Origin: Oscillospiraceae bacterium
GTDB taxonomy: Bacteria; Bacillota; Clostridia; Oscillospirales; CAG-272
Reading direction: 5' to 3'
Length of the DNA: 64,000 nucleotides
NCBI GenBank assembly: GCA_015063485.1
Contig: SVUA01000001.1
Span: forward strand, 62,001 to 126,000
Below are positions 5,864 through 48,159 of this stretch, in pieces. Position numbers and translations under genes: made by a program. Below the pieces are notes generated by a model that was given only the letters and a program-made list of their open reading frames with translations, made no database searches and was not told where the DNA came from. Each line of letters starts with the position of its first letter. Within the stretch, counting starts at the first letter, position 1.

Positions 5864-7798
5864 ATGATCTATTACGTATCAACAAACGGTAACGATAACG
5901 CTCTCGGAACAAAAGAATCACCCTTTCGCACGATAAACCATGCGGCGCAGGTAGCCGTTGCGGGAGATACTGTGCGTGTATTTGGCGGAACTTACAGAGA
6001 AAGAGTTTCTCCTAAAAACAGCGGCGAGGAAAACGCTCGCATTACTTACGAAGCGGTTGAGGGTGAAAAGCCGATAATAAAAGGCTCGGAAATAGTTACC
6101 GACTGGGAGCTTGTAGATGGAACGGTTTGGAAAAAGACTCTTCCGAACTCTGTGTTTGGAAAATTCAATCCTTTTGCTACTATTATGTGGGGCGACTGGT
6201 TTGAAAAGCCTGCCGATTACAAGGTGCATCTTGGCGACGTTTATGTTGATGGAAAATCTATGTACGAGGCATCTTCTATGGAAGACCTATTTGAAGCCAA
6301 GAAGCGTATTATCGGTATGCGCTGGAGTTCTATGCAGTTTAAAGTTGAGGGGATATATTTTCCCGATGATACGGTTTATCGCTGGTTTGCGGAGGTAAAC
6401 GAGAATGAAACTGTAATTTACGGAAACTTTCAGGAAAAAGACCCGAACGCATGTCTTACCGAGATAAACGTTCGTCCTACGTGTATTTATCCTGAAAAAT
6501 TGAATGTAAATTACATAACTATTCGCGGGTTTGAGATAGCGCAAGCAGCAACACAATGGGCGCCGCCTACCGCTTCACAGATAGGTATGGTAGGTCCTCG
6601 TTGGTCAAAGGGCTGGATAATCGAGAACAACGACCTGCACGACGCTAAATGTTGTGCTATAAGTCTCGGACGCGATGCGCTCGAGGGCGAGAATCTTTCT
6701 TATCAGTTTTGCAGAAAATCAGGTCACAGATATCAGGTCGAGACAACTTACGAGGCTCTTGAGGCCGGTTGGTCAAAGGAGAATATAGGTTCTCATATCA
6801 TAAGAAATAATGAGATACACGACTGCGGACAGTGCGGTATCGTTGGAAATCTTGGCGGAGTATTCAGCCGCATCGAGCATAATCATATCCATCATATCGC
6901 GGGAAAGCAGGAGTTTTGGGGACACGAGATAGCGGGAATAAAGCTTCACGCGTCTATAGACGTAACTATCGAGGGTAACTATTTCCACCATTGCCCCACA
7001 CACGGAATCTGGCTTGACTGGCAGGCGCAGGGTACGCGCGTAACGAAAAACGTGTTCCACGATAACTTCCCCGATCTTATGATGGAGGTGACTCACGGAC
7101 CTCTTACTGTTGATAATAATCTGTTTTTATCTCCCTATGCTTTTATTGATAGTGCGCAAGGAACCGCTTTCGTTCATAACGTTATCGCGGGATACGTGCT
7201 TCAGAAGGAACACAAGAAAAGAGCGACGCCTTATCACTATCCTCACAGAACCTTACCCAAGGGATTTGTTGCAACGCTTGGCGGAGATGATAGGGTTTAC
7301 GGAAATATTATTCTCGGCACGGAGCCGTGTCCGAAGAGTAGAGCTTATTTCTCTACTTGCTACGATAATTACGTAACAAGTGAGGAATATGCGAACATAA
7401 AGTGGAAATATAAGTATATCGGTCTTGATGAGATCGTGGAAAAGCCGCAGGTCGTTTATATTGCCGAAAACGTTTACGGTGGCTTGGCAAGTCCGTTCCG
7501 TCAGGAGATAGGCGCGTTGAGAGCTGATGATATAAGCTTTTCTATCGCGCAAGAAAACGGTGATGCGGTGCTTACTATCAACGTTCCGGAGAAGGTTGCA
7601 AATATGAGAATAACTCCTACCACTACCGAGCGTCTCGGAACTCCTCGTGTGGTTGAGCAACCGTATGAAAATCCCGATGGAACGCCTATCGATTTCACTC
7701 TTGATATACAAGGTAATAAGAGAGATGACGATATAGTCGCAGGGCCTTTTGCGCATCTTTGTGCAGGTGAAAATAAATTTGTGGTTTGGAAAAAGTAA
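5864..7798 (+). CDS. GH120-type beta-xylosidase, tandem copy 2
   Basis: Second paralogue, 644 residues, 40 bases after copy 1 with its own AAGGAG site. The predicted catalytic pair is Asp385 (WLDWQAQG) and Glu408 (MEVTHGP). It is the closest relative of copy 1. Blocks of DNA are identical or nearly so, for example the first 200 bases of the gene and the stretch near 7438-7525 against 5461-5549, while the region around residues 90-160 differs. That mosaic suggests gene conversion or recent duplication. Like copy 1 it has GPRWSKGW and IGRDALEGENLS, so its substrate preference is probably close to copies 1 and 5. Cytoplasmic. Confidence 0.88.
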   Translation: MIYYVSTNGNDNALGTKESPFRTINHAAQVAVAGDTVRVFGGTYRERVSPKNSGEENARITYEAVEGEKPIIKGSEIVTDWELVDGTVWKKTLPNSVFGKFNPFATIMWGDWFEKPADYKVHLGDVYVDGKSMYEASSMEDLFEAKKRIIGMRWSSMQFKVEGIYFPDDTVYRWFAEVNENETVIYGNFQEKDPNACLTEINVRPTCIYPEKLNVNYITIRGFEIAQAATQWAPPTASQIGMVGPRWSKGWIIENNDLHDAKCCAISLGRDALEGENLSYQFCRKSGHRYQVETTYEALEAGWSKENIGSHIIRNNEIHDCGQCGIVGNLGGVFSRIEHNHIHHIAGKQEFWGHEIAGIKLHASIDVTIEGNYFHHCPTHGIWLDWQAQGTRVTKNVFHDNFPDLMMEVTHGPLTVDNNLFLSPYAFIDSAQGTAFVHNVIAGYVLQKEHKKRATPYHYPHRTLPKGFVATLGGDDRVYGNIILGTEPCPKSRAYFSTCYDNYVTSEEYANIKWKYKYIGLDEIVEKPQVVYIAENVYGGLASPFRQEIGALRADDISFSIAQENGDAVLTINVPEKVANMRITPTTTERLGTPRVVEQPYENPDGTPIDFTLDIQGNKRDDDIVAGPFAHLCAGENKFVVWKK

Positions 7799-15220: not shown

Positions 15221-15249
15221 AAAAAGTCCTTGAAAATCAAGGACTTTTT
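15221..15249. terminator. Bidirectional terminator with CCTTGAAAATCAAGG core
   Basis: A perfect 13-base stem with AAA loop flanked by A- and T-runs, 31 bases beyond the stop of the HELTH-motif gene. Its 15-base core is identical to the core of the terminator at 20109-20151 on the other side of the putative mobile element. Confidence 0.7.
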
Positions 15250-15280: not shown

Positions 15281-15793
15281 TTATTGTCCGTGGCAACCTT
15301 GGCATGAATTGTCAGGCTCTTTACAATGGTAATTACAATAATCTTCTAAAATTCGAGTTGCATATTTTGATGCCTGGATTTCAAGTGAGCGATCACCTTT
15401 TTTGTTATCGTCTAAAAAGTACCACTGAAAATAATGTGTTAGCTCGTGCGAGAGCGAATGATAAACGGAAAACAAATCCATATTTGCAGGTATGTATATC
15501 TGCGGATAAATGCGCCCGGCGCTTTCCTCATTAGAGTAAAAGATGCCGTAGCAATAGCCTCCTTTTGAGGAATGAAACTTTTCTTGATTGCAAAAATAAA
15601 CGTTGCATCTTATCGGAAAGAAAAACTCTTTCCTTAAATAGCGAACAAAACTGCAAATGTTGTTTTTTGTGTCGCGATCAATAGCAGATGCAAAATGAAG
15701 TGATAGGTTAGATTTAGGGGCGGAATTTGAATAAAAGCGAATGTTTTCTTCTTTATTTGTTATCCACAAAAAATCTTTTGACAATGAAAACAC
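15281..15793 (-). CDS. Putative zinc metallopeptidase-like protein (orphan)
   Basis: 170 residues from a GTG start with AAGGGACG before it; a -10 TATAAT lies at 15827-15832 on the minus strand. I do not recognise the family. The visible signature is SHELTHYFQW near residue 115, an HExxH zinc-binding motif, followed about 20 residues later by LEIQASKYA, which could supply the third ligand (Glu), as in IrrE/ImmA- and SprT-like peptidases. There is no signal peptide. The tail has several Cys and His (CNYHCKEPDNSCQGCHG). It is AT-rich and sits on the opposite strand at the edge of the rolling-circle element, where it could be cargo or an insertion. Confidence 0.6.
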   Translation of the reverse strand: MFSLSKDFLWITNKEENIRFYSNSAPKSNLSLHFASAIDRDTKNNICSFVRYLRKEFFFPIRCNVYFCNQEKFHSSKGGYCYGIFYSNEESAGRIYPQIYIPANMDLFSVYHSLSHELTHYFQWYFLDDNKKGDRSLEIQASKYATRILEDYCNYHCKEPDNSCQGCHGQ

Positions 15794-18338: not shown

Positions 18339-19340
18339 ATGATATTTGAAAATTGTAAGGTAACGAATGACGGATCTCATTACGTCGCGTCTATCCCATT
18401 TTCTTGGGGTGGACACGGCGGCGGTTATTCTCCCCGCAAAGCTGATTCTATTCTTTTTGATGAATATTATCAGAAAGCACAGCTTGAGGGTGTCTCTGAT
18501 AAAAGAATAGCGTCATACGTTGAGGAGGAAATAAGACGTGATAGAGATATTGAAGATTGGATTCCTTCCGAACGTTGCGCGGAGCTTCTTAAGAATAAGC
18601 GTAGATCTGTGCATAAACGTTATAAGCGTTATGAAGGTAAGCTTATGCTTACGGCTTTTAATTGGTACGTCACGTTTACGTATGATGATGAGAAAGAGAC
18701 GCCTGAAAAATTCGAAAAGAAATTGAAAAGGTGCTTTTCAAATTTTAAATGCCGTAAGAATTGGCGTGTTGTCGGCGTTCCTGAAGAAGGAGAAGAAAAA
18801 GGGCGTCTTCATTGGCACTGCTTTCTTCGTATACCTGAGGGCGCGATGGTTGGAAAGCTTTTTCTCAATAAGGCGTATTCCACTAAGCGCAAAAAATATG
18901 AGACGTGGACTGATAATGAGTATTTTAATAAGCGCTTCGGAAATTCGGTTTGGGAAGCGATCACTCCCGCGGATCTTCGTAATGGCGGAGCGCTGCGCCG
19001 ATACCTTTTAAAATATCTTCAAAAAAGCGGACATAAAATGTTTTATAGCCGCGATCTCCCCCATGAGCTTCGTGTTGACGTCAATACGGAAACCGACGTT
19101 GCGTGTACTTATTTTAATTTTGGATATAAAAGCATATTGTATAATAGCGTAATTAATAAAGAACCTGAGGAAAAGGCTGAAAGCAATGATAAATATAATT
19201 ATACGTTTCCCGTGGAGAAAGGACACGGATTTAACGTTAAAGAATTGCTTGAGAAATATAAATATCCTATTCAATATCCGAAAGGCTATAAGCCTGAAAA
19301 CGCTTCTGTAGGAACGTTTGTGCCTGTACTCCTTTATTAA
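18339..19340 (+). CDS. HUH-type rolling-circle replication initiator (Rep)
   Basis: 333 residues, starting nine bases after the ATPase gene with GAGG before the ATG. The three motifs of HUH endonucleases are present: motif 1 WYVTFTYDD (about residue 107), motif 2 GRLHWHCFL (about 155) with the metal-binding His-x-His, and motif 3 RYLLKYLQKSG (about 225) with the catalytic Tyr and nearby Lys. A single Tyr at the active site fits replication initiators of small ssDNA phages and plasmids. It would nick one strand at the element's origin, probably in the structured DNA just downstream (19.4-20.0 kb). Confidence 0.82.
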   Translation: MIFENCKVTNDGSHYVASIPFSWGGHGGGYSPRKADSILFDEYYQKAQLEGVSDKRIASYVEEEIRRDRDIEDWIPSERCAELLKNKRRSVHKRYKRYEGKLMLTAFNWYVTFTYDDEKETPEKFEKKLKRCFSNFKCRKNWRVVGVPEEGEEKGRLHWHCFLRIPEGAMVGKLFLNKAYSTKRKKYETWTDNEYFNKRFGNSVWEAITPADLRNGGALRRYLLKYLQKSGHKMFYSRDLPHELRVDVNTETDVACTYFNFGYKSILYNSVINKEPEEKAESNDKYNYTFPVEKGHGFNVKELLEKYKYPIQYPKGYKPENASVGTFVPVLLY

Positions 19341-19518
19341 CTCGCCCGCAGGGCAAAAGCGAAAGGTACGGGATAGCCGAACGCAAGAAGCGAAAATCGA
19401 ATATTTTTTGAAAGCCGACTAAGCTCGGTCTTTTCGTGTTTGTGGTGATGGTACGAAAAATGAGAAAAACAGCGTAGAAATTGAACGGGTTAGTGAAATC
19501 GAACGCTTTCGAATCGTC

Positions 19519-19570
19519 CGACACCGCGGGGCGCGGCGAAGCCGCGCCCCCTCGATAATACAAGGTGTCG
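19519..19570. repeat. GC-rich hairpin nested in a second stem
   Basis: An outer stem CGACACC (19519-19525) pairs with GGTGTCG (19564-19570). Inside it lies a perfect ten-base all-GC stem GGGGCGCGGC / GCCGCGCCCC (19528-19537 with 19541-19550) with a GAA loop. Such a stable structure next to an HUH Rep gene could be a nick site, a single-strand origin or a packaging signal. Confidence 0.55.
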
Positions 19571-19711
19571 TATAATGCTCAAATGCTCATGGAACGAGAA
19601 AAAACATATTTGATATTTAAGATTTTTAATAAAAAATAAAAGAATTTTTCTTTTTAAAAAAATGTGGATAAGTGCAAAAATTCGTGTTGACACGAACTTT
19701 TTGCCCCTCGC

Positions 19712-19827
19712 CTGTGGTAAAGTTGTGGTAAAGGTTGTTGTAAAGTGCTGGCTGTGGTTAAGGCTGTGGTAAAGACTGTGGTAAAGACACGGGCTGTGGT
19801 AAAGCTGTGTGTAAACTCGTGGTAAAG
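19712..19827. repeat. Array A: nine TGTGGTAAAG-type units in three triplets
   Basis: Units start at 19713, 19724, 19736; 19753, 19765, 19777; 19795, 19806 and 19818. Spacing within a triplet is 11-12 bases and between triplets 17-18. The consensus is GCTGTGGTAAAG. Unit 3 reads TGTTGTAAAG and unit 8 ends in AAAC; both variants recur at the matching places in array B. Confidence 0.75.
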
Positions 19828-19901
19828 TCGAACTATGTAAACAAATATGAATGAGAGCAGAGAGTATCGATAAACGAAAGAAGATAAGAGAGCTATTGTG
19901 A

Positions 19902-20018
19902 CTTTTCCACGTGTTTTCCATCAGCTTTTCCATGGTTCGCGTCTTTTCCATAGTTTTTTCCATAGGCTTTTCCATCAGACGTACTTTTCAATAGCCTTTT
20001 CCATCAGCTTTTCCACAG
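19902..20018. repeat. Array B: inverted counterpart of array A
   Basis: Units of CTTTTCCATAG type start (TTTTCC) at 19903, 19914, 19926; 19944, 19956, 19968; 19985, 19997 and 20009. Read on the minus strand the array aligns with array A along its whole length at roughly 70-75% identity, including triplet spacing and unit-specific variants. It differs systematically: GGAAAA for GGTAAA, and mostly ATGG for GTGG. Confidence 0.75.
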
Positions 20019-20108
20019 TTCTAAAAATAAAGTTACTTTATTTGACATCATTTTGACATCATTCAAGGCGATATTTGACATCACTTGAGGATATTTAAGG
20101 ACATAATG

Positions 20109-20151
20109 AAAACCCCGCAAAGCCTTGAAAATCAAGGCTTTGCGGGGTTTT
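20109..20151. terminator. Strong bidirectional terminator beside tRNA-Ser
   Basis: A perfect 20-base stem (20109-20128 with 20132-20151) with AAA loop, A-run on one side and T-run on the other. It follows the tRNA-Ser on the minus strand and closes the Rep element on the plus strand. Confidence 0.8.
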
Positions 20152-20156
20152 GCTCG

Positions 20157-20249
20157 TGGCGGAGAAGGAGAGATTTGAACTCTCGCGCCGGTTAAATCCG
20201 ACCTACACCCTTAGCAGGGGCGCCTCTTCGGCCTCTTGAGTACTTCTCC
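20157..20249 (-). tRNA. tRNA-Ser (anticodon GCU)
   Basis: A 93-base class II tRNA including an encoded CCA. The acceptor stem is GGAGAAG / CTTCTCC with G discriminator, there is a long variable arm, the T loop is GTTCAAATC, and the anticodon loop CTGCTAA gives GCU, reading AGC/AGU serine codons. A consensus promoter lies 47 bases upstream. tRNA genes are common integration sites; the Rep element abuts its 3' end, though I found no duplicate of that end at the far side. Confidence 0.95.
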
Positions 20250-30359: not shown

Positions 30360-31244
30360 TTGCTAACTATGAAAAAGACTGCAAGGCGATTTGTTATGTT
30401 TTTCGTCAGTGTGTGTATGCTTGCTATGGCGTTAGCTCCGGCAGCTGCGGCGGCGCAGAGAGAAGTTTACGTATTTCCTGAAGGCTCGGCTTCGGTAAAC
30501 GTCACGCTTGACGGAAAAACGATACTCGAAGGAAAGGCGGCTATAATTAATTCTGTCACGTACGTCCCTCTTCGTGAATTTTCCGAGCTTGCGGGCGCTG
30601 AAAGTGTAAAATGGAACGCCCAAACACGAACCGCAACTGTGAAAAAAGGAAACGTCACGCTTTACGTGACCGATGGAGGATATTACATATCCGCGCTTGA
30701 CCGCTATTTCTACACGGGAGAGAAAGTTTTGAACATAAACGGCAGACTTTTTGTTCCGATAAGATCACTCTCGCAGGTGTTTTCGCTAAACGTTGATTGG
30801 AACGCGCAGACGAGAACTGCGGTTTTGACGAGTACGGGCAAGACTCTTAAGAGCGGCGCGGCGTATTATAACGCGGACGACCTTTATTGGCTCTCGCGTA
30901 TAATTTATGCCGAGGCGGGCGGAGAGTCGCTCGTAGGTCAGATAGCGGTCGGAAACGTGGTGTTGAACAGAAAGGCTCATACTTCTTATCCGAACACGGT
31001 ATACGGAGTCATTTTTGACCGCAAGGGCGGAACACAGTTTACACCCGTTGCGATAGGAACTATCTACAAAACACCCAGCAACGCGGCGGTCATCGCGGCG
31101 AAGATATGTCTTGAGGGAACTACTGTGTCGACGGAAGCCTTGTTCTTTATGAATCCGAGGATCGCTACGAGTAATTGGATATCGCGTAATTGCAAATTTC
31201 TCTTTACGATAGGCAATCACGATTTCTACGGACTTTGGAAATGA
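30360..31244 (+). CDS. Secreted SleB-type cell wall hydrolase with copper-amine-oxidase-like N-terminal domain
   Basis: 294 residues. A TTG at 30360 lies eight bases after AAGGAGG; the ATG at 30369 is too far away, so TTG is probably the start. A signal peptide ends near AAAAAQRE. Residues 35-150 form the small repeated domain seen at the N-terminus of many Gram-positive wall proteins (VPLREFSELAGAESVKWNAQTRTATV and FVPIRSLSQVFSLNVDWNAQTRTAVL, each longer in full). Residues 170-294 are the SleB catalytic domain (LSRIIYAEAGGESLVGQIAV, with likely catalytic Glu). SleB-type domains cleave peptidoglycan, in spores or in vegetative walls. Confidence 0.85.
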   Translation: MLTMKKTARRFVMFFVSVCMLAMALAPAAAAAQREVYVFPEGSASVNVTLDGKTILEGKAAIINSVTYVPLREFSELAGAESVKWNAQTRTATVKKGNVTLYVTDGGYYISALDRYFYTGEKVLNINGRLFVPIRSLSQVFSLNVDWNAQTRTAVLTSTGKTLKSGAAYYNADDLYWLSRIIYAEAGGESLVGQIAVGNVVLNRKAHTSYPNTVYGVIFDRKGGTQFTPVAIGTIYKTPSNAAVIAAKICLEGTTVSTEALFFMNPRIATSNWISRNCKFLFTIGNHDFYGLWK

Positions 31245-31264
31245 AATAAAAGCCAAGAGCTTTT

Positions 31265-31293
31265 CTCCCTTCGAATTTTCGAGGGGAGTTTTT
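31265..31293 (+). terminator. Terminator of the SleB-type gene
   Basis: A ten-base stem CTCCCTTCGA / TCGAGGGGAG with an ATTT loop, followed by TTTTT. Confidence 0.7.
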
Positions 31294-31448
31294 GCATGTT
31301 TCATCAAATATTCACATAAAAATCAACTTAAAATTTGAGAAAAAGAACAAACATTCACAAAATGTTTATAATTGTATGTTATAATGTATTCTGTATTAGT
31401 GTAAAAACCGCTAATTTGACAAAAAATTAAGGAAAGGAATTCCTCATT

Positions 31449-32519
31449 ATGATAAAAATTGAGCATCTTGTGAAGAATTATGGCTCAAACTGTGCCGTAG
31501 ACGATATCAGCTTTGAGGTCAAAAAAGGCGAGATCGTTGGTTTTCTTGGACCGAACGGAGCAGGAAAAAGTACAACGATGAATATTTTAACGGGATATCT
31601 TTCGTCTACATCGGGAAGCGTGTCGATCGCGGGGATTGACGTTCTGGACAACCCTCTTGAAGCTAAAAAGCATATAGGATATCTGCCCGAGCAGCCTCCT
31701 CTGTATCTTGATATGACGGTTGAGGAGTATCTTATATTCAATTACAACTTAAAGGGCTGTAAGCTTAACAGAGATAAGCACTTGATGGAGATATGCGACG
31801 TTGTTAAGATAAGAGACGTTTATAAGCGCGTTATAAAGAATCTTTCTAAAGGTTATCGCCAAAGAGTAGGTATCGCACAGGCGCTTATCGGAAGCCCCGA
31901 GGTCATTATCTTCGACGAGCCTACGGTGGGACTTGACCCCAAGCAGATAATCGAGGTCAGAAACCTTCTCAGAAACCTCGGAAAAGACCATACGGTCATT
32001 CTTTCAACGCATATTTTGCAAGAGGTTCAAGCGGTATGCGACAGAATAGTTATTATAAACAAGGGTAGGATAGTTGCGGACGAGCTTACCGAGAACATAA
32101 CGCGCGCGGTAGAGAACAACCGCCGCTTTAACGTTAAGATATGCGGACCTCAAAAGGAGGTCCTCGCAATGCTTCGCTCACGCCCCGGTATCGTTTATGC
32201 GGAATTGCTTCCGCAAAGAGACGGCGACGCTTATTGCTATATGATCGAGAGCGAGGTAGGGGTCGATATTCGAAAGAGCCTTTTCTATACTCTTGCAGAG
32301 AAGAAATGGGCGCTTATCGGACTTGAGGCGATGGGTATGAGCCTTGAGGAAATATTTATCGCGATAGTAGACCAAGCGAATCCCTCTAACAAGAATAAGC
32401 ATGAGCGCAAGAATCGCCGCGCGGGCGCGGAGCGCGAGGTCGCAAAGACCATCATGGAAAACACGGGCAGATCGCAGGGCGGAGAGTATTCCGCACTCTT
32501 CGGCGATGACGATAAATGA
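31449..32519 (+). CDS. ABC transporter ATP-binding protein (Gld-like exporter)
   Basis: 356 residues, with a complete ABC domain in the first 230: Walker A GPNGAGKST (about 36), signature NLSKGYRQRVGIAQAL (about 134), Walker B VIIFDEPTVGLDP (about 155) and switch His in LSTHIL. The remaining 120 residues are a C-terminal domain ending in a basic segment (NKNKHERKNRRAGAERE). AAAGGAATTCCTCATT precedes the ATG. First gene of a four-gene operon with a permease, a GldG-like protein and a DUF4340-type protein. In Bacteroidetes the homologous GldA-F-G set is linked to gliding; in Clostridia the cargo is unknown. Confidence 0.88.
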   Translation: MIKIEHLVKNYGSNCAVDDISFEVKKGEIVGFLGPNGAGKSTTMNILTGYLSSTSGSVSIAGIDVLDNPLEAKKHIGYLPEQPPLYLDMTVEEYLIFNYNLKGCKLNRDKHLMEICDVVKIRDVYKRVIKNLSKGYRQRVGIAQALIGSPEVIIFDEPTVGLDPKQIIEVRNLLRNLGKDHTVILSTHILQEVQAVCDRIVIINKGRIVADELTENITRAVENNRRFNVKICGPQKEVLAMLRSRPGIVYAELLPQRDGDAYCYMIESEVGVDIRKSLFYTLAEKKWALIGLEAMGMSLEEIFIAIVDQANPSNKNKHERKNRRAGAEREVAKTIMENTGRSQGGEYSALFGDDDK

Positions 32520-32581
32520 TAAAACGCGTTTGACAATGAATATGAAAGGAGCTGTACCGTACATAAACGGTCAAAAATAAA

Positions 32582-33328
32582 ATGTTTGCTATTTTCAAAA
32601 AAGAATTGCGTTCATATTTCATAAACGCAATAGGATATGTCTTTGTAGGCGTGTTCTTGGCGGTGGCGGCGCTTCTTTGCTGCTATACGACTCTCGGAGC
32701 GAGAACCTATAATACCTCATCCTATTTCCAGATGATGATATTTTCTTTTATAATCCTCATTCCTTTGCTTACCATGAAGCTTTTCGCGGAGGAGAAAAAG
32801 CTTCGCACGGAGCAGCTTTTGCTTACCGCTCCCGTATCTATTCCGGGAATGATATTGGGAAAATATTTTGCCGCATTTACTCTTTTCCTTGGATGCGTTC
32901 TCGTATCCTGCATAAATTTCTTCCCGCTTTATTCCTACGCGAATATTGAAGCCGCGGGGAAGAGCTATGCAGACGAGCACGTTGGACCCGCTACCGCCGA
33001 GATAATCTCTTGTCTTGTAGGTATCATACTTATCGGAGCGGCGTTCATAGCGATAGGATTGTTTGTGTCCTCGCTTACCGAAAATCAGCTTGCGGCTGCG
33101 GTAATTACTGTTTCAATTATTTTCGTTATGCTCGTTCTTGACATGCTTAATAAGTACATTGACGTGTATGCGATAAGATTCGTTATAAGCTGGTTCTGCG
33201 TCATTAGCAGATTTTCGTATTTCACGTCGGGAATACTTGATTTTGCGTCGATATTATACTATATTTCAATCACGGCAGTTTTCCTGCTTTTGACGGTGCG
33301 CGTTTACGATAAACGCCGCTGGGGTTGA
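32582..33328 (+). CDS. ABC transporter permease (GldF-like)
   Basis: 248 residues with six predicted membrane helices, starting MFAIFKKELRSYFINAIGY, the usual start of ABC-2 type permeases of this kind. LRTEQLLLTAPVSIPGMILGK (in part) is the conserved cytoplasmic segment. The AAAGGAG ribosome site is unusually far (about 27 bases) from the ATG; an ACCGT / ACGGT stem between them could bring it closer. Forms the membrane channel with the preceding ATPase. Confidence 0.86.
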   Translation: MFAIFKKELRSYFINAIGYVFVGVFLAVAALLCCYTTLGARTYNTSSYFQMMIFSFIILIPLLTMKLFAEEKKLRTEQLLLTAPVSIPGMILGKYFAAFTLFLGCVLVSCINFFPLYSYANIEAAGKSYADEHVGPATAEIISCLVGIILIGAAFIAIGLFVSSLTENQLAAAVITVSIIFVMLVLDMLNKYIDVYAIRFVISWFCVISRFSYFTSGILDFASILYYISITAVFLLLTVRVYDKRRWG

Positions 33329-33348
33329 TAGAAGGGCAGGTGTGAAAA

Positions 33349-35055
33349 ATGAAAATGAAAACGTCAACCGGTAAAAAGCTTCGTTACGGAGGCATTTCCG
33401 CACTTGTTACCGCGGTAATTATTGCCGCTATTATCCTTTTTAACGTTATATTTTCCGCGCTTTCGTATAAATTTACGTGGTATGCGGATCTGACTCCCGA
33501 CCTCCTCTTCACCCTTTCGGAAAACTGTATAGACCTTATCCGTAACGGTGACGATGAATTTGAGGAAAGCTCTTCTCCTATCGAAATGGTAGACAAGATA
33601 AGAGCAGAGAACAAGCAATATAATGCTGATAACGGTCTGTCCGAGGGTATGGAGGGTTATCGCGATGAAAATATTATGATAAACCTCATATTCTGTGATG
33701 ACCCTGACGTATGGCAGGGTGATAAGATGATGAATTACGTCTACAACACAGCTACCGAGATCCAGGCAGAATTTCCCGACTATATTTCTATCAAAAATCC
33801 GAATATAGTTCACAATCCGTCATCTGTTACAAAGTATAAGGTGAACACTATGTCCACTATCGCTCCGACGAGCGTTATTATCGAGTTTGGTACAGAGTAC
33901 AGAATACGCGCTCTTGATAGCTTCTATACCACCAATACCGAAGACGATACAATATGGGCGTATAACGGAGAAAAGGCATTTGCGGCGTCCATTCTTTCTG
34001 TTACAAGGGCAGAATCTCCCCTTGCATGTGTTACGGTAAATCACCGAGAGGGCTTTGCTGATACGGCACTTCTTCAAACGCTTAGCGACGCAGGATATAA
34101 GATAGATGACGTAGACCTTAAAAACGAGGAAATTCCCGAGGATTGCAGACTTCTCGTTATATTTGACCCCAAGGACGATTTTCTTGTTAAAGACGGAACG
34201 TCGGACATTGATGAGATAGCTAAGATAGATAAGTTCCTCGATGAGACCAATTCCATGATGGTATTCGTATCTCCCGAAACTCCCGTGCTTAAAAATCTTG
34301 AGGAGTATCTTGCGGAGTGGGGAATAAAGTTTGACAGACATACCGATACGGCGGGAAATGAGCATTCTTACATGATAAAGGATACTCAGAATTCTCTTAC
34401 TTCAAACGGATTTACTGTCGTTTCCGAGTACGTTACTGATAATCCCTTGACCTCTATCACTAAAACCATGAGAAGCCGGCCTGTTCCTCAAAGCGTTATA
34501 TTCCCGAATGCGATGTCGATATCTTATTCCGATATCTACTCGCCGCAACGCTACATTGACGAAGAGGATCCAAGTGTTGCGTATAATTACGCGTCTTATA
34601 GAGCAGACGGATTTTCACGCTCTATATATAATCTATTTACTACCGGTGCGACCGCCTCGGCTTTTGCAAACGGAAGCGAAGTGGAAAAGGCATCTGAAAA
34701 CAATAAGCTTGCGCTTATGACGATATCGGTGGAGGATAGAACGGTTCAGGAATCGAACTATACTACTATAAACGAGGCATCTTACGTTATCGCGTGCGGT
34801 TCTACCGACTTCGTAAGTAAAGACTTCCTTGAATCAAACGCTTACGGTAATACCGACCTTATGCTCTCTGCTTGCCGTTCTATCGGTCAGGAGCCCGTAC
34901 CCGTAGGACTTGGCTTTAAGCCCTTTGCCGATTTTACCATCGATACAGTAACTACAAAGGAGGCAACGCAATATACCGTAGTGCTTACGGTAGTGCCTGT
35001 TGTTGCATCGATAGTTGCAGGAATCGTTGTTCTCGTTAGGAGAAAGCACAGATGA
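33349..35055 (+). CDS. GldG-like ABC auxiliary membrane protein
   Basis: 568 residues. One membrane helix near the N-terminus (about 12-35) and one at the C-terminus (about 540-562), with a large extracytoplasmic domain between them of the kind found in GldG/ABC-type uncharacterised transport proteins. Typical segments are FTLSENCIDLIR near the start, LLVIFDPKDDF near 265 and the helix-rich KIDKFLDETNSMMVFVSPET. It lies 20 bases after the permease and overlaps the next gene by four bases. Predicted to work with the transporter outside the membrane; mechanism unknown. Confidence 0.82.
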   Translation: MKMKTSTGKKLRYGGISALVTAVIIAAIILFNVIFSALSYKFTWYADLTPDLLFTLSENCIDLIRNGDDEFEESSSPIEMVDKIRAENKQYNADNGLSEGMEGYRDENIMINLIFCDDPDVWQGDKMMNYVYNTATEIQAEFPDYISIKNPNIVHNPSSVTKYKVNTMSTIAPTSVIIEFGTEYRIRALDSFYTTNTEDDTIWAYNGEKAFAASILSVTRAESPLACVTVNHREGFADTALLQTLSDAGYKIDDVDLKNEEIPEDCRLLVIFDPKDDFLVKDGTSDIDEIAKIDKFLDETNSMMVFVSPETPVLKNLEEYLAEWGIKFDRHTDTAGNEHSYMIKDTQNSLTSNGFTVVSEYVTDNPLTSITKTMRSRPVPQSVIFPNAMSISYSDIYSPQRYIDEEDPSVAYNYASYRADGFSRSIYNLFTTGATASAFANGSEVEKASENNKLALMTISVEDRTVQESNYTTINEASYVIACGSTDFVSKDFLESNAYGNTDLMLSACRSIGQEPVPVGLGFKPFADFTIDTVTTKEATQYTVVLTVVPVVASIVAGIVVLVRRKHR

Positions 35056-47671: not shown

Positions 47672-47700
47672 AATATATCACATATATTTGAAAATGTCAA
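47672..47700 (-). promoter_or_regulatory. Promoter of the liv operon
   Basis: TTGACA (47695-47700), 17 bases, TATATT (47672-47677) on the minus strand, about 75 bases before the livJ start codon. Confidence 0.7.
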
Positions 47701-48003
47701 GATATTTTTAAAAAAAAATAGATTTTTTGAAAAAATATTCAATATTTTATATAACATTTAATGAAGAATATTGATTTTATTTTTTTTATTGTTTTTCTTG
47801 GATTATAACTAACGCAAACGATGTGTTCGGATTTTAATTGCAAAAATGGTGATGAAAAATGCAAAGAAAATATTCAGAATATCACAAAACTCAATTGATA
47901 TTCGTTGATAAAACAGATAAATAATACAATTTCAAAAGAAGGAAAGAAAAATTTCAAAAATTCTATACTTTTATAGAAAAAATCTATATTTTTTCACAAA
48001 CCC
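47701..48003. other. AT-rich spacer without a recognised gene
   Basis: About 300 bases of very AT-rich DNA between the liv promoter and the tRNA-Ser promoter. No open frame with a ribosome site, no strong hairpin and no known RNA motif was seen. Confidence 0.5.
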
Positions 48004-48032
48004 TTGACATTTGATAAAATATGTGATAAAAT
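48004..48032 (+). promoter_or_regulatory. Promoter of tRNA-Ser(UGA)
   Basis: TTGACA (48004-48009), 17 bases, TAAAAT (48027-48032), 40 bases before the tRNA. Confidence 0.75.
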
Positions 48033-48071: not shown

Positions 48072-48159
48072 GGAGGGATATCGAAGTGGTCATAACGAGG
48101 CGGTCTTGAAAACCGTTTGCCCTCTGGGCACGTGGGTTCGAATCCCACTCCCTCCGCCA
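48072..48159 (+). tRNA. tRNA-Ser (anticodon UGA)
   Basis: An 88-base class II tRNA with encoded CCA. Acceptor stem GGAGGGA / TCCCTCC with G discriminator, T loop GTTCGAATC, anticodon loop CTTGAAA (UGA, reading UCA and related serine codons), and a variable arm GCCCTCTGGGC. Followed 25 bases later by a terminator. Confidence 0.96.

Follow-up and report, generated by a model that had tools for sequence, protein, structure and literature searches.

A long mismatched hairpin at positions 19712–20018 of the window (the 64,000-nt stretch of DNA analysed here) consists of two inverted arms with nine short units each. We read it best as the origin at which an integrated ssDNA, rolling-circle element starts its complementary strand (minus-strand origin; sso or ssi), enlarged to nine units, and give this reading about an even chance. 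The array terminates what looks like a truncated prophage, in the order membrane ATPase, HUH Rep, array and tRNA-Ser. Coordinates are listed in Table 1.

Table 1. The hairpin array and the features of the element around it (positions in the window)
Feature	Position	Strand	Remarks
Membrane P-loop ATPase, 761 aa	16044..18329	+	hydrophobic N-terminal part and GAPGVGKTT, by eye
Rep, 333 aa, PF23343 REP_ORF2-G2P	18339..19340	+	E 1.6e-10
Candidate plus-strand origin (dso-like): GC-rich hairpin and TAATACAAGGTG	about 19487..19585	+	by-eye comparison
DnaA-box consensus, perfect (TGTGGATAA on +)	19663..19671	-	40 bp before arm A
Terminator-like stem, then CTTTTT	19681..19696	+	directly before array; weak
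Whole mismatched hairpin, two nine-unit inverted arms around purine-rich loop	19712..20018	+	
Arm A, units TGTGGTAAA (A-type strand)	19712..19835	+	
Arm A unit starts	19713,19724,19736,19753,19765,19777,19795,19806,19818	+	
Loop, 58 nt, purine-rich, between arms	19836..19893	+	
Arm B, units TTTTCCA[TC][AC] (B-type strand)	19894..20018	+	
Arm B unit right ends	20017,20005,19993,19976,19964,19952,19934,19922,19911	+	
TTGACATCATTTTGACATCA direct repeats	20042..20061	+	also near right end in L023
CCTTGAAAATCAAGG	20123..20137	+	second copy at 15228
tRNA-Ser (GCT), right-hand neighbour of element	20157..20249	-	

The anatomy of the array is established with high confidence. An earlier note on this DNA had described two arms with regular spacings, and recomputation gave 11,12,17,12,12,18,11,12 from the unit starts of arm A and 12,12,17,12,12,18,12,11 from the unit ends of arm B in reverse reading. 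The paired arm A and arm B unit positions, entered by hand, sum to 39729 ± 1. The odd units are matched between the arms as described, with TTG in unit 3 and an AAAC end of unit 8 in both. A repeated unit is present, but of the 12 bases proposed for it only 9–10 per unit are conserved. ATGG had been given as the arm B form, but B1 and B9 carry GTGG. The G.T wobble claimed for each unit is found at position 2 in 4/8 window units, the others having G-C. With up to one mismatch, TGTGGTAAAG occurs 12 times on the two strands of the window (2.86 expected), 9 of these inside the array, and CTTTTCCATMR occurs 23 times (6.67 expected), 8 of these in arm B. An inverted-repeat scan of the window that took spans of up to 420 bases scored the array at 122 on the plus strand and 81 on the minus strand, and the next-best hairpin at 74. 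Loops resembling that of the window array are seen by eye, unscored, in L017, L018 and L143.

The plus strand of the array folds as a single long stem with 105 Watson-Crick and 13 G.T pairs. Folded as DNA, the plus strand has an energy of -64.2 kcal/mol (z -9.4) and the minus strand -50.5 kcal/mol (z -6.4); folded as RNA, the values are -135.6 (plus) and -92.2 (minus). None of 100 shuffles matched the DNA or RNA folding energy of the array on either strand. The unequal fold stability proposed for the two strands is therefore real in that the plus strand is clearly better, yet both strands far exceed the shuffles.

A survey of related elements started from 82 regions after ATPase genes, of which 3 were too short and 79 were scanned, plus 39 further loci. 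Arrays are present in 4/79 of the regions and 5/39 of the loci, three places being in both sets. Hairpins of the same kind are found in six elements (the window, L017, L018, L023, L144 and L145), distributed over two ATPase clades; those of L149 and L152 look by eye like another type. Each of the six has its more stable fold on the sense strand. With an arm alignment that is strand-neutral, G.T and A.C being scored alike, the pooled sense strands display 66 G.T versus 16 A.C, and 33 T.T versus 7 A.A. Per element the G.T/A.C counts are 12/1, 6/0, 10/2, 13/1, 7/4 and 18/8, the last two, from L144 and L145 (p 0.08 for the latter), being individually non-significant. A control hairpin in L143, long but without units, has G.T/A.C of 9/9 and T.T/A.A of 1/1. 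Thus the keto-keto mismatches (G.T, T.T) predicted for the sense strand are upheld as a bias across the six arrays, and the identity of unit position 6 recurs in other replicons. The 3x3 triplet spacing, which had been expected to be conserved, is found solely in the window element; unit number ranges from one to nine and spacing is variable, and a conserved arrangement of this type is rejected.

Nearly every sense-strand unit can pair an A-type TGTKGKAAA with a B-type TTTTCMAYR. The composition of 29 paired units from the six arrays was tabulated with a search pattern that leaves position 6 open and keeps most of the remaining A-type strand fixed; an unpaired L145 unit was left out, and window unit 8 does not match the pattern. 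Position 6 is T.T in 20 units and G.T in 8, with 1 unassigned. Position 4 is G-C in 22 and T-A in 7, and position 9 is A-T in 26 and G-C in 3, both sides changing together in each case. Position 2 is G-C in 13, G.T in 15 and A-T in 1. The complement of the sense strand has A.C and A.A where the sense strand has G.T and T.T. The joint changes at positions 4 and 9 support the view that pairing is upheld, and the near-fixed mismatch at position 6 points to recognition. A looser count over 14 hairpins, with 57 entries reduced by hand to 50 distinct-register units by removal of 7 one-base-shifted duplicates, has T.T or G.T at position 6 in 46/50 and a Watson-Crick pair in 4.

The window copy of the element is probably a truncated prophage, because the left part of the element is missing. 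The tRNA-Ser gene is the probable integration site, the TTGACATCATTTTGACATCA direct repeats are probable integrase arm sites, and the CCTTGAAAATCAAGG repeat is a possible remnant of an attachment site. The REP_ORF2-G2P domain marks the Rep as an HUH rolling-circle protein, and the view of the array as a single-strand-type site beside an HUH Rep gene agrees with its strand-biased mismatches and with the PF23343 Rep just upstream. The dso-like layout 3′ of Rep resembles by eye that in L017, L018 and L023. Rep relatives are found in 11/196 genomes of the same family and ATPase relatives in 37/395 genomes, the window's own being included in both counts. An alignment scan found an ATPase relative encoded in 126/135 candidate stretches of GTDB genomes and recovered one viral contig with a relative; single-protein scans of genome contigs and viral contigs gave no matches. 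By tblastn the window ATPase protein matches 1/50,697 phage records and 0 plasmid records. This large ATPase family is common in Clostridia genomes, yet the collections of phages, plasmids and viral contigs that were searched contain hardly any members. A 57-kb unannotated human fecal phage record, MT835493.1, carries relatives of both ATPase and Rep at 30805–33573.

Complete relatives are about 15–20 kb long, e.g., 19.8 kb between 46-bp tRNA repeats in G180; the relative in G028 has about 14.6 kb between longer repeats. Their gene order is integrase, probable repressor, small secreted proteins, large surface protein, ATPase, Rep, array and tRNA, with functions assigned by eye except for the integrase (PF00589 in G180) and Rep. 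This order recalls that of inoviruses, yet there is no Zot-family match: a profile search of the window ATPase found no Zot (PF05707), and a scan of nine ATPase family members to E 1 did not list PF05707. Inoviruses of gut Clostridia (Enterocloster) share with the window element an integrated state, an ATPase gene for assembly (pI) and attachment sites made of direct repeats, and are mostly 6.5–8.5 kb with one of 16 kb (PMC10061712, seen in part); the window ATPase, in contrast, gave no Zot-family match, and the complete relatives of the element are about 15–20 kb. In G180, integrase-arm-like repeats and a tRNA-Met repeat each occur twice (L179, about 830 and 1201), a sign that elements may stand in tandem at a single tRNA. 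What by eye resembles a type I toxin-antitoxin pair, a small hydrophobic ORF opposed by a TTGACA/TATAAT promoter, lies between Rep/ATPase and array in L017 (8110–8340), L018 (1560–1750), L023 (9540–9720), L144 (about 7340–7540) and L145 (5360–5560); none was seen in this interval of the window.

Smaller versions of the unit hairpin are also found beside other replication genes. In L241 (G370) it is flanked by an ATPase gene and a Rep gene; it lies in L242 (G377) in an element with Rep_1 (PF01446) and an integrase, and in L292 (G026) next to another P-loop ATPase ORF (by eye). It is present 3′ of the Mob gene (Mob_Pre) of the Clostridioides difficile plasmid pCd13_cfrC, found through a 100% match to a 92-nt query from genome locus L307, in the Pusillibacter plasmid pMM59_02, and in three Microviridae-type genomes (MG945688.1, bajarodmic virus 789 and viral contig L258). 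One L258 unit has a flipped position-5 pair and retains T.T. The Reps of the carriers are thus of several types: PF23343, Rep_1, microvirus Reps, and a plasmid protein that has no Pfam match but is related to proteins with an HTH or replication annotation. A Rep iteron field, one of the functions first suggested for the array, is rejected because the units sit beside these different Reps. Copies in L266, L268 and L408 are on contigs whose genes by eye resemble those of dsDNA phage. These three contigs and the Rep-ATPase element L241 share, with small variations, an extended module, GTGCGGGGTGAAT-[unit hairpin]-AGAGGGGATAGCCCC.

Sixteen replicons were scanned with position 6 and its partner open; 13 of them had been selected for carrying the hairpin, and the scan is thus a test of strand and mismatch, not of frequency. 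The sense strand yielded 14 T.T, 7 G.T and 16 other stems, and the other strand 1 T.T, 1 G.T and 27 others, i.e., T.T or G.T in 21/37 versus 2/29 candidate stems. The 11 A.A among those 27 are expected because they are the same stems read backwards. The T.T or G.T stems come from 11/16 replicons; the relatives L396, L397 and L398 gave none, and the scan is incomplete, missing L018 and L392, whose hairpins do hold such units. The energy difference between strands is not universal, because in bajarodmic virus 789 and in both L258 hairpins it is the complement that has the slightly more stable fold, and the difference in L242 is small. L203 has three units without clear strand bias; L230, which folds better on one strand, was set aside, as were L201 and L213. 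It should be noted that the unit sequence pattern alone is not diagnostic, because a viral scan with position 6 and the partner of position 2 open yielded mostly perfect palindromes (165 readings with A/C versus 6 others). Pattern searches of genomes and viral contigs gave many chance matches without flanking pairing, and in one genome search a backwards control pattern also matched many genomes; part of the matches were inspected, and solely those with extended pairing were used.

An origin had been among the functions suggested for the array. It fits best as a complementary-strand origin rather than as the site nicked by Rep, for which the dso-like hairpin upstream, recognised by eye, is the candidate. 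Rep would nick at this dso, and the sense strand would be displaced, or would enter a new cell, and then fold. The mismatched blocks would arise only upon this folding, being absent from either double-stranded arm. RNA polymerase, a primosome protein, primase or DnaA would be the host factor that binds the folded hairpin and primes the second strand. Owing to the keto-keto mismatches, the correct strand would be marked and the prophage arms would fall short of a perfect palindrome; the mismatches may also serve as the feature that is recognised.

An sso is favoured because the carriers differ in Rep, ATPase, capsid and mobilisation genes, yet share a single-stranded stage. Second-strand synthesis by host enzymes would be the need common to all of them, and an sso the shared cis function. 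The module indeed accompanies Reps of PF23343, PF01446 and the HTH/replication-annotated plasmid type, and the sense strand, which we infer to be the displaced one, folds into an extended stem-loop. The folding and mismatch bias of the window array are consistent with orientation-specific action. The motif CS-6 (TAGCGT), conserved in sso's of the ssoA/U/T/W type, is missing from 19712–20018 by a reading by eye. Five sso classes are on record, and known sso's are single-strand-specific, orientation-specific, flexible in position and host-limited (PMC4595007 and PMC5703833, as far as their available text goes). The array is like the sso's of Gram-positive rolling-circle replicons (ssoA, ssoU, ssoT, ssoW, ssoL; ICEBs1 sso1) in that these too are ssDNA stem-loops, orientation-specific and position-flexible, occurring in diverse plasmids (PMC5703833, PMC4595007, same portions). 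It differs from them, apart from CS-6, in having one to nine 9-bp units with a nearly fixed non-Watson-Crick pair. Counted against an sso are the missing CS-6, the copies in the dsDNA-phage-like contigs L266, L268 and L408, the strand energy difference that does not hold in every carrier, and the small number of arrays (4/79 regions, 5/39 loci). We know of no copy in a replicon with a mapped sso.

More tentatively, the units may represent a new class of ssDNA initiation signal, with a near-obligatory keto-keto mismatch within a short paired block, present in gut Clostridia on inovirus-like prophages, on microviruses and on mobilisable plasmids. One host factor might read it by sensing the mismatched duplex, a structure confined to the folded sense strand, and this prophage would have amplified it to nine blocks at about one per helical turn. 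To our knowledge, little work has gone into how the ssDNA phages of gut Clostridia, and their rolling-circle plasmids, start the second strand. No mismatch-hairpin single-strand origins are evident in the titles and abstract beginnings of the literature searched, and the inovirus literature, judged from its listings, describes no such hairpin arrays. Such a shared signal, with its conserved mismatch, would offer direct access to the host factor, link otherwise unrelated replicons and provide a sequence tag by which ssDNA replicons could be recognised in metagenomes. If true, it would be an unusual case of selection retaining a specific mismatched pair in DNA.

A functional role at the RNA level is the alternative that survives best, and it is an unlikely one. 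The sense transcript would fold as a long dsRNA-like hairpin acting on expression or RNA stability. G.U and U.U pairs are tolerated in RNA, which together with the strongly strand-biased RNA folding fits such a role, and the joint unit changes suit RNA equally as ssDNA. However, among 11 related loci only tRNAs reach the Rfam gathering score, and nothing does so in window positions 19300–20200. Phages and plasmids also have copies flanked by unrelated genes, and the terminator-like site directly before the array speaks weakly against transcription into it, 4 such sites being found versus 2.2 expected. A known RNA family was rejected: 19300–20200 has sub-gathering matches only, and these fall mainly on the terminator hairpin at the tRNA side.

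A packaging signal, the remaining function suggested at the outset, is nearly as improbable, weakened by the copies in plasmids and microviruses. As in f1, coat proteins or the membrane ATPase of a filamentous-phage-like particle would recognise the folded hairpin as its leading tip. The f1/M13 intergenic region has hairpins near its plus origin and Rep, and a minus-strand origin. The array is present in ATPase-bearing elements, its keto mismatches lie on one strand, and the f1 packaging signal is likewise a hairpin (PMC10175506, part of the text). However, the array stem is far longer and has repeated units, and the arrays belong to two ATPase clades. The unit is not confined to filamentous elements, occurring in two plasmids and three Microviridae-type genomes, and no relative of the window ATPase is found in those records (tblastn of phage and plasmid collections; profile search of L258).

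Slightly less probable again is a DnaA-box-like array, in which DnaA would bind the folded units, as in an A-site of the ABC-primosome type, or the double-stranded arms. The commonest A- and B-strand forms are each one substitution away from TTTTCCACA, a DnaA-box form, the unit spacing is about one turn, and the DnaA box at 19663 is perfect. Paired TTWTCCACA boxes are found in 4/7 genomes of the host group, and none in the window's own incomplete genome. Against this, several units break the core of TTTTCCACA (7/29 have TTG/CAA in the DnaA-box core, and one L258 hairpin has GC there), and the arms as double strands largely depart from the consensus. Loading of DnaB on ssDNA by a DnaA-box hairpin is possible (PMC6127211, in part), and the A-site of the ABC primosome resembles the array as a short protein-site-like sequence in an ssDNA hairpin (same source and portion). 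The array differs from it in its many units, which resemble a DnaA box yet in most copies are off-consensus on both strands.

Least probable of these is a spread palindromic repeat (REP-like, or the ends of a small mobile element) with no role in its carrier. Similar modules in the unrelated carriers L241, L266, L268 and L408, and one identical 27-mer in four genomes, would be expected of it, but searches with two patterns found no copy elsewhere in the window's genome (the three matches of one pattern are the array, and the other has none), and the mismatch is retained while the surrounding sequence varies.

Other features of the window lie outside the element. To its left is a BspA-type leucine-rich-repeat protein (PF13306, 13805–14890), and a 170-aa ORF on the minus strand (15281–15793), without match in Pfam, PHROGs or NCBIfam, has by eye a HELTH (HExxH-like) stretch. 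A second long AT-rich inverted repeat at 47676–48028 adjoins another tRNA-Ser (48072–48159), and its arms resemble by eye two facing TTGACA-type promoter sequences. This repeat folds about equally on the two strands (-44.6 and -45.7) and is of a different kind from the array.
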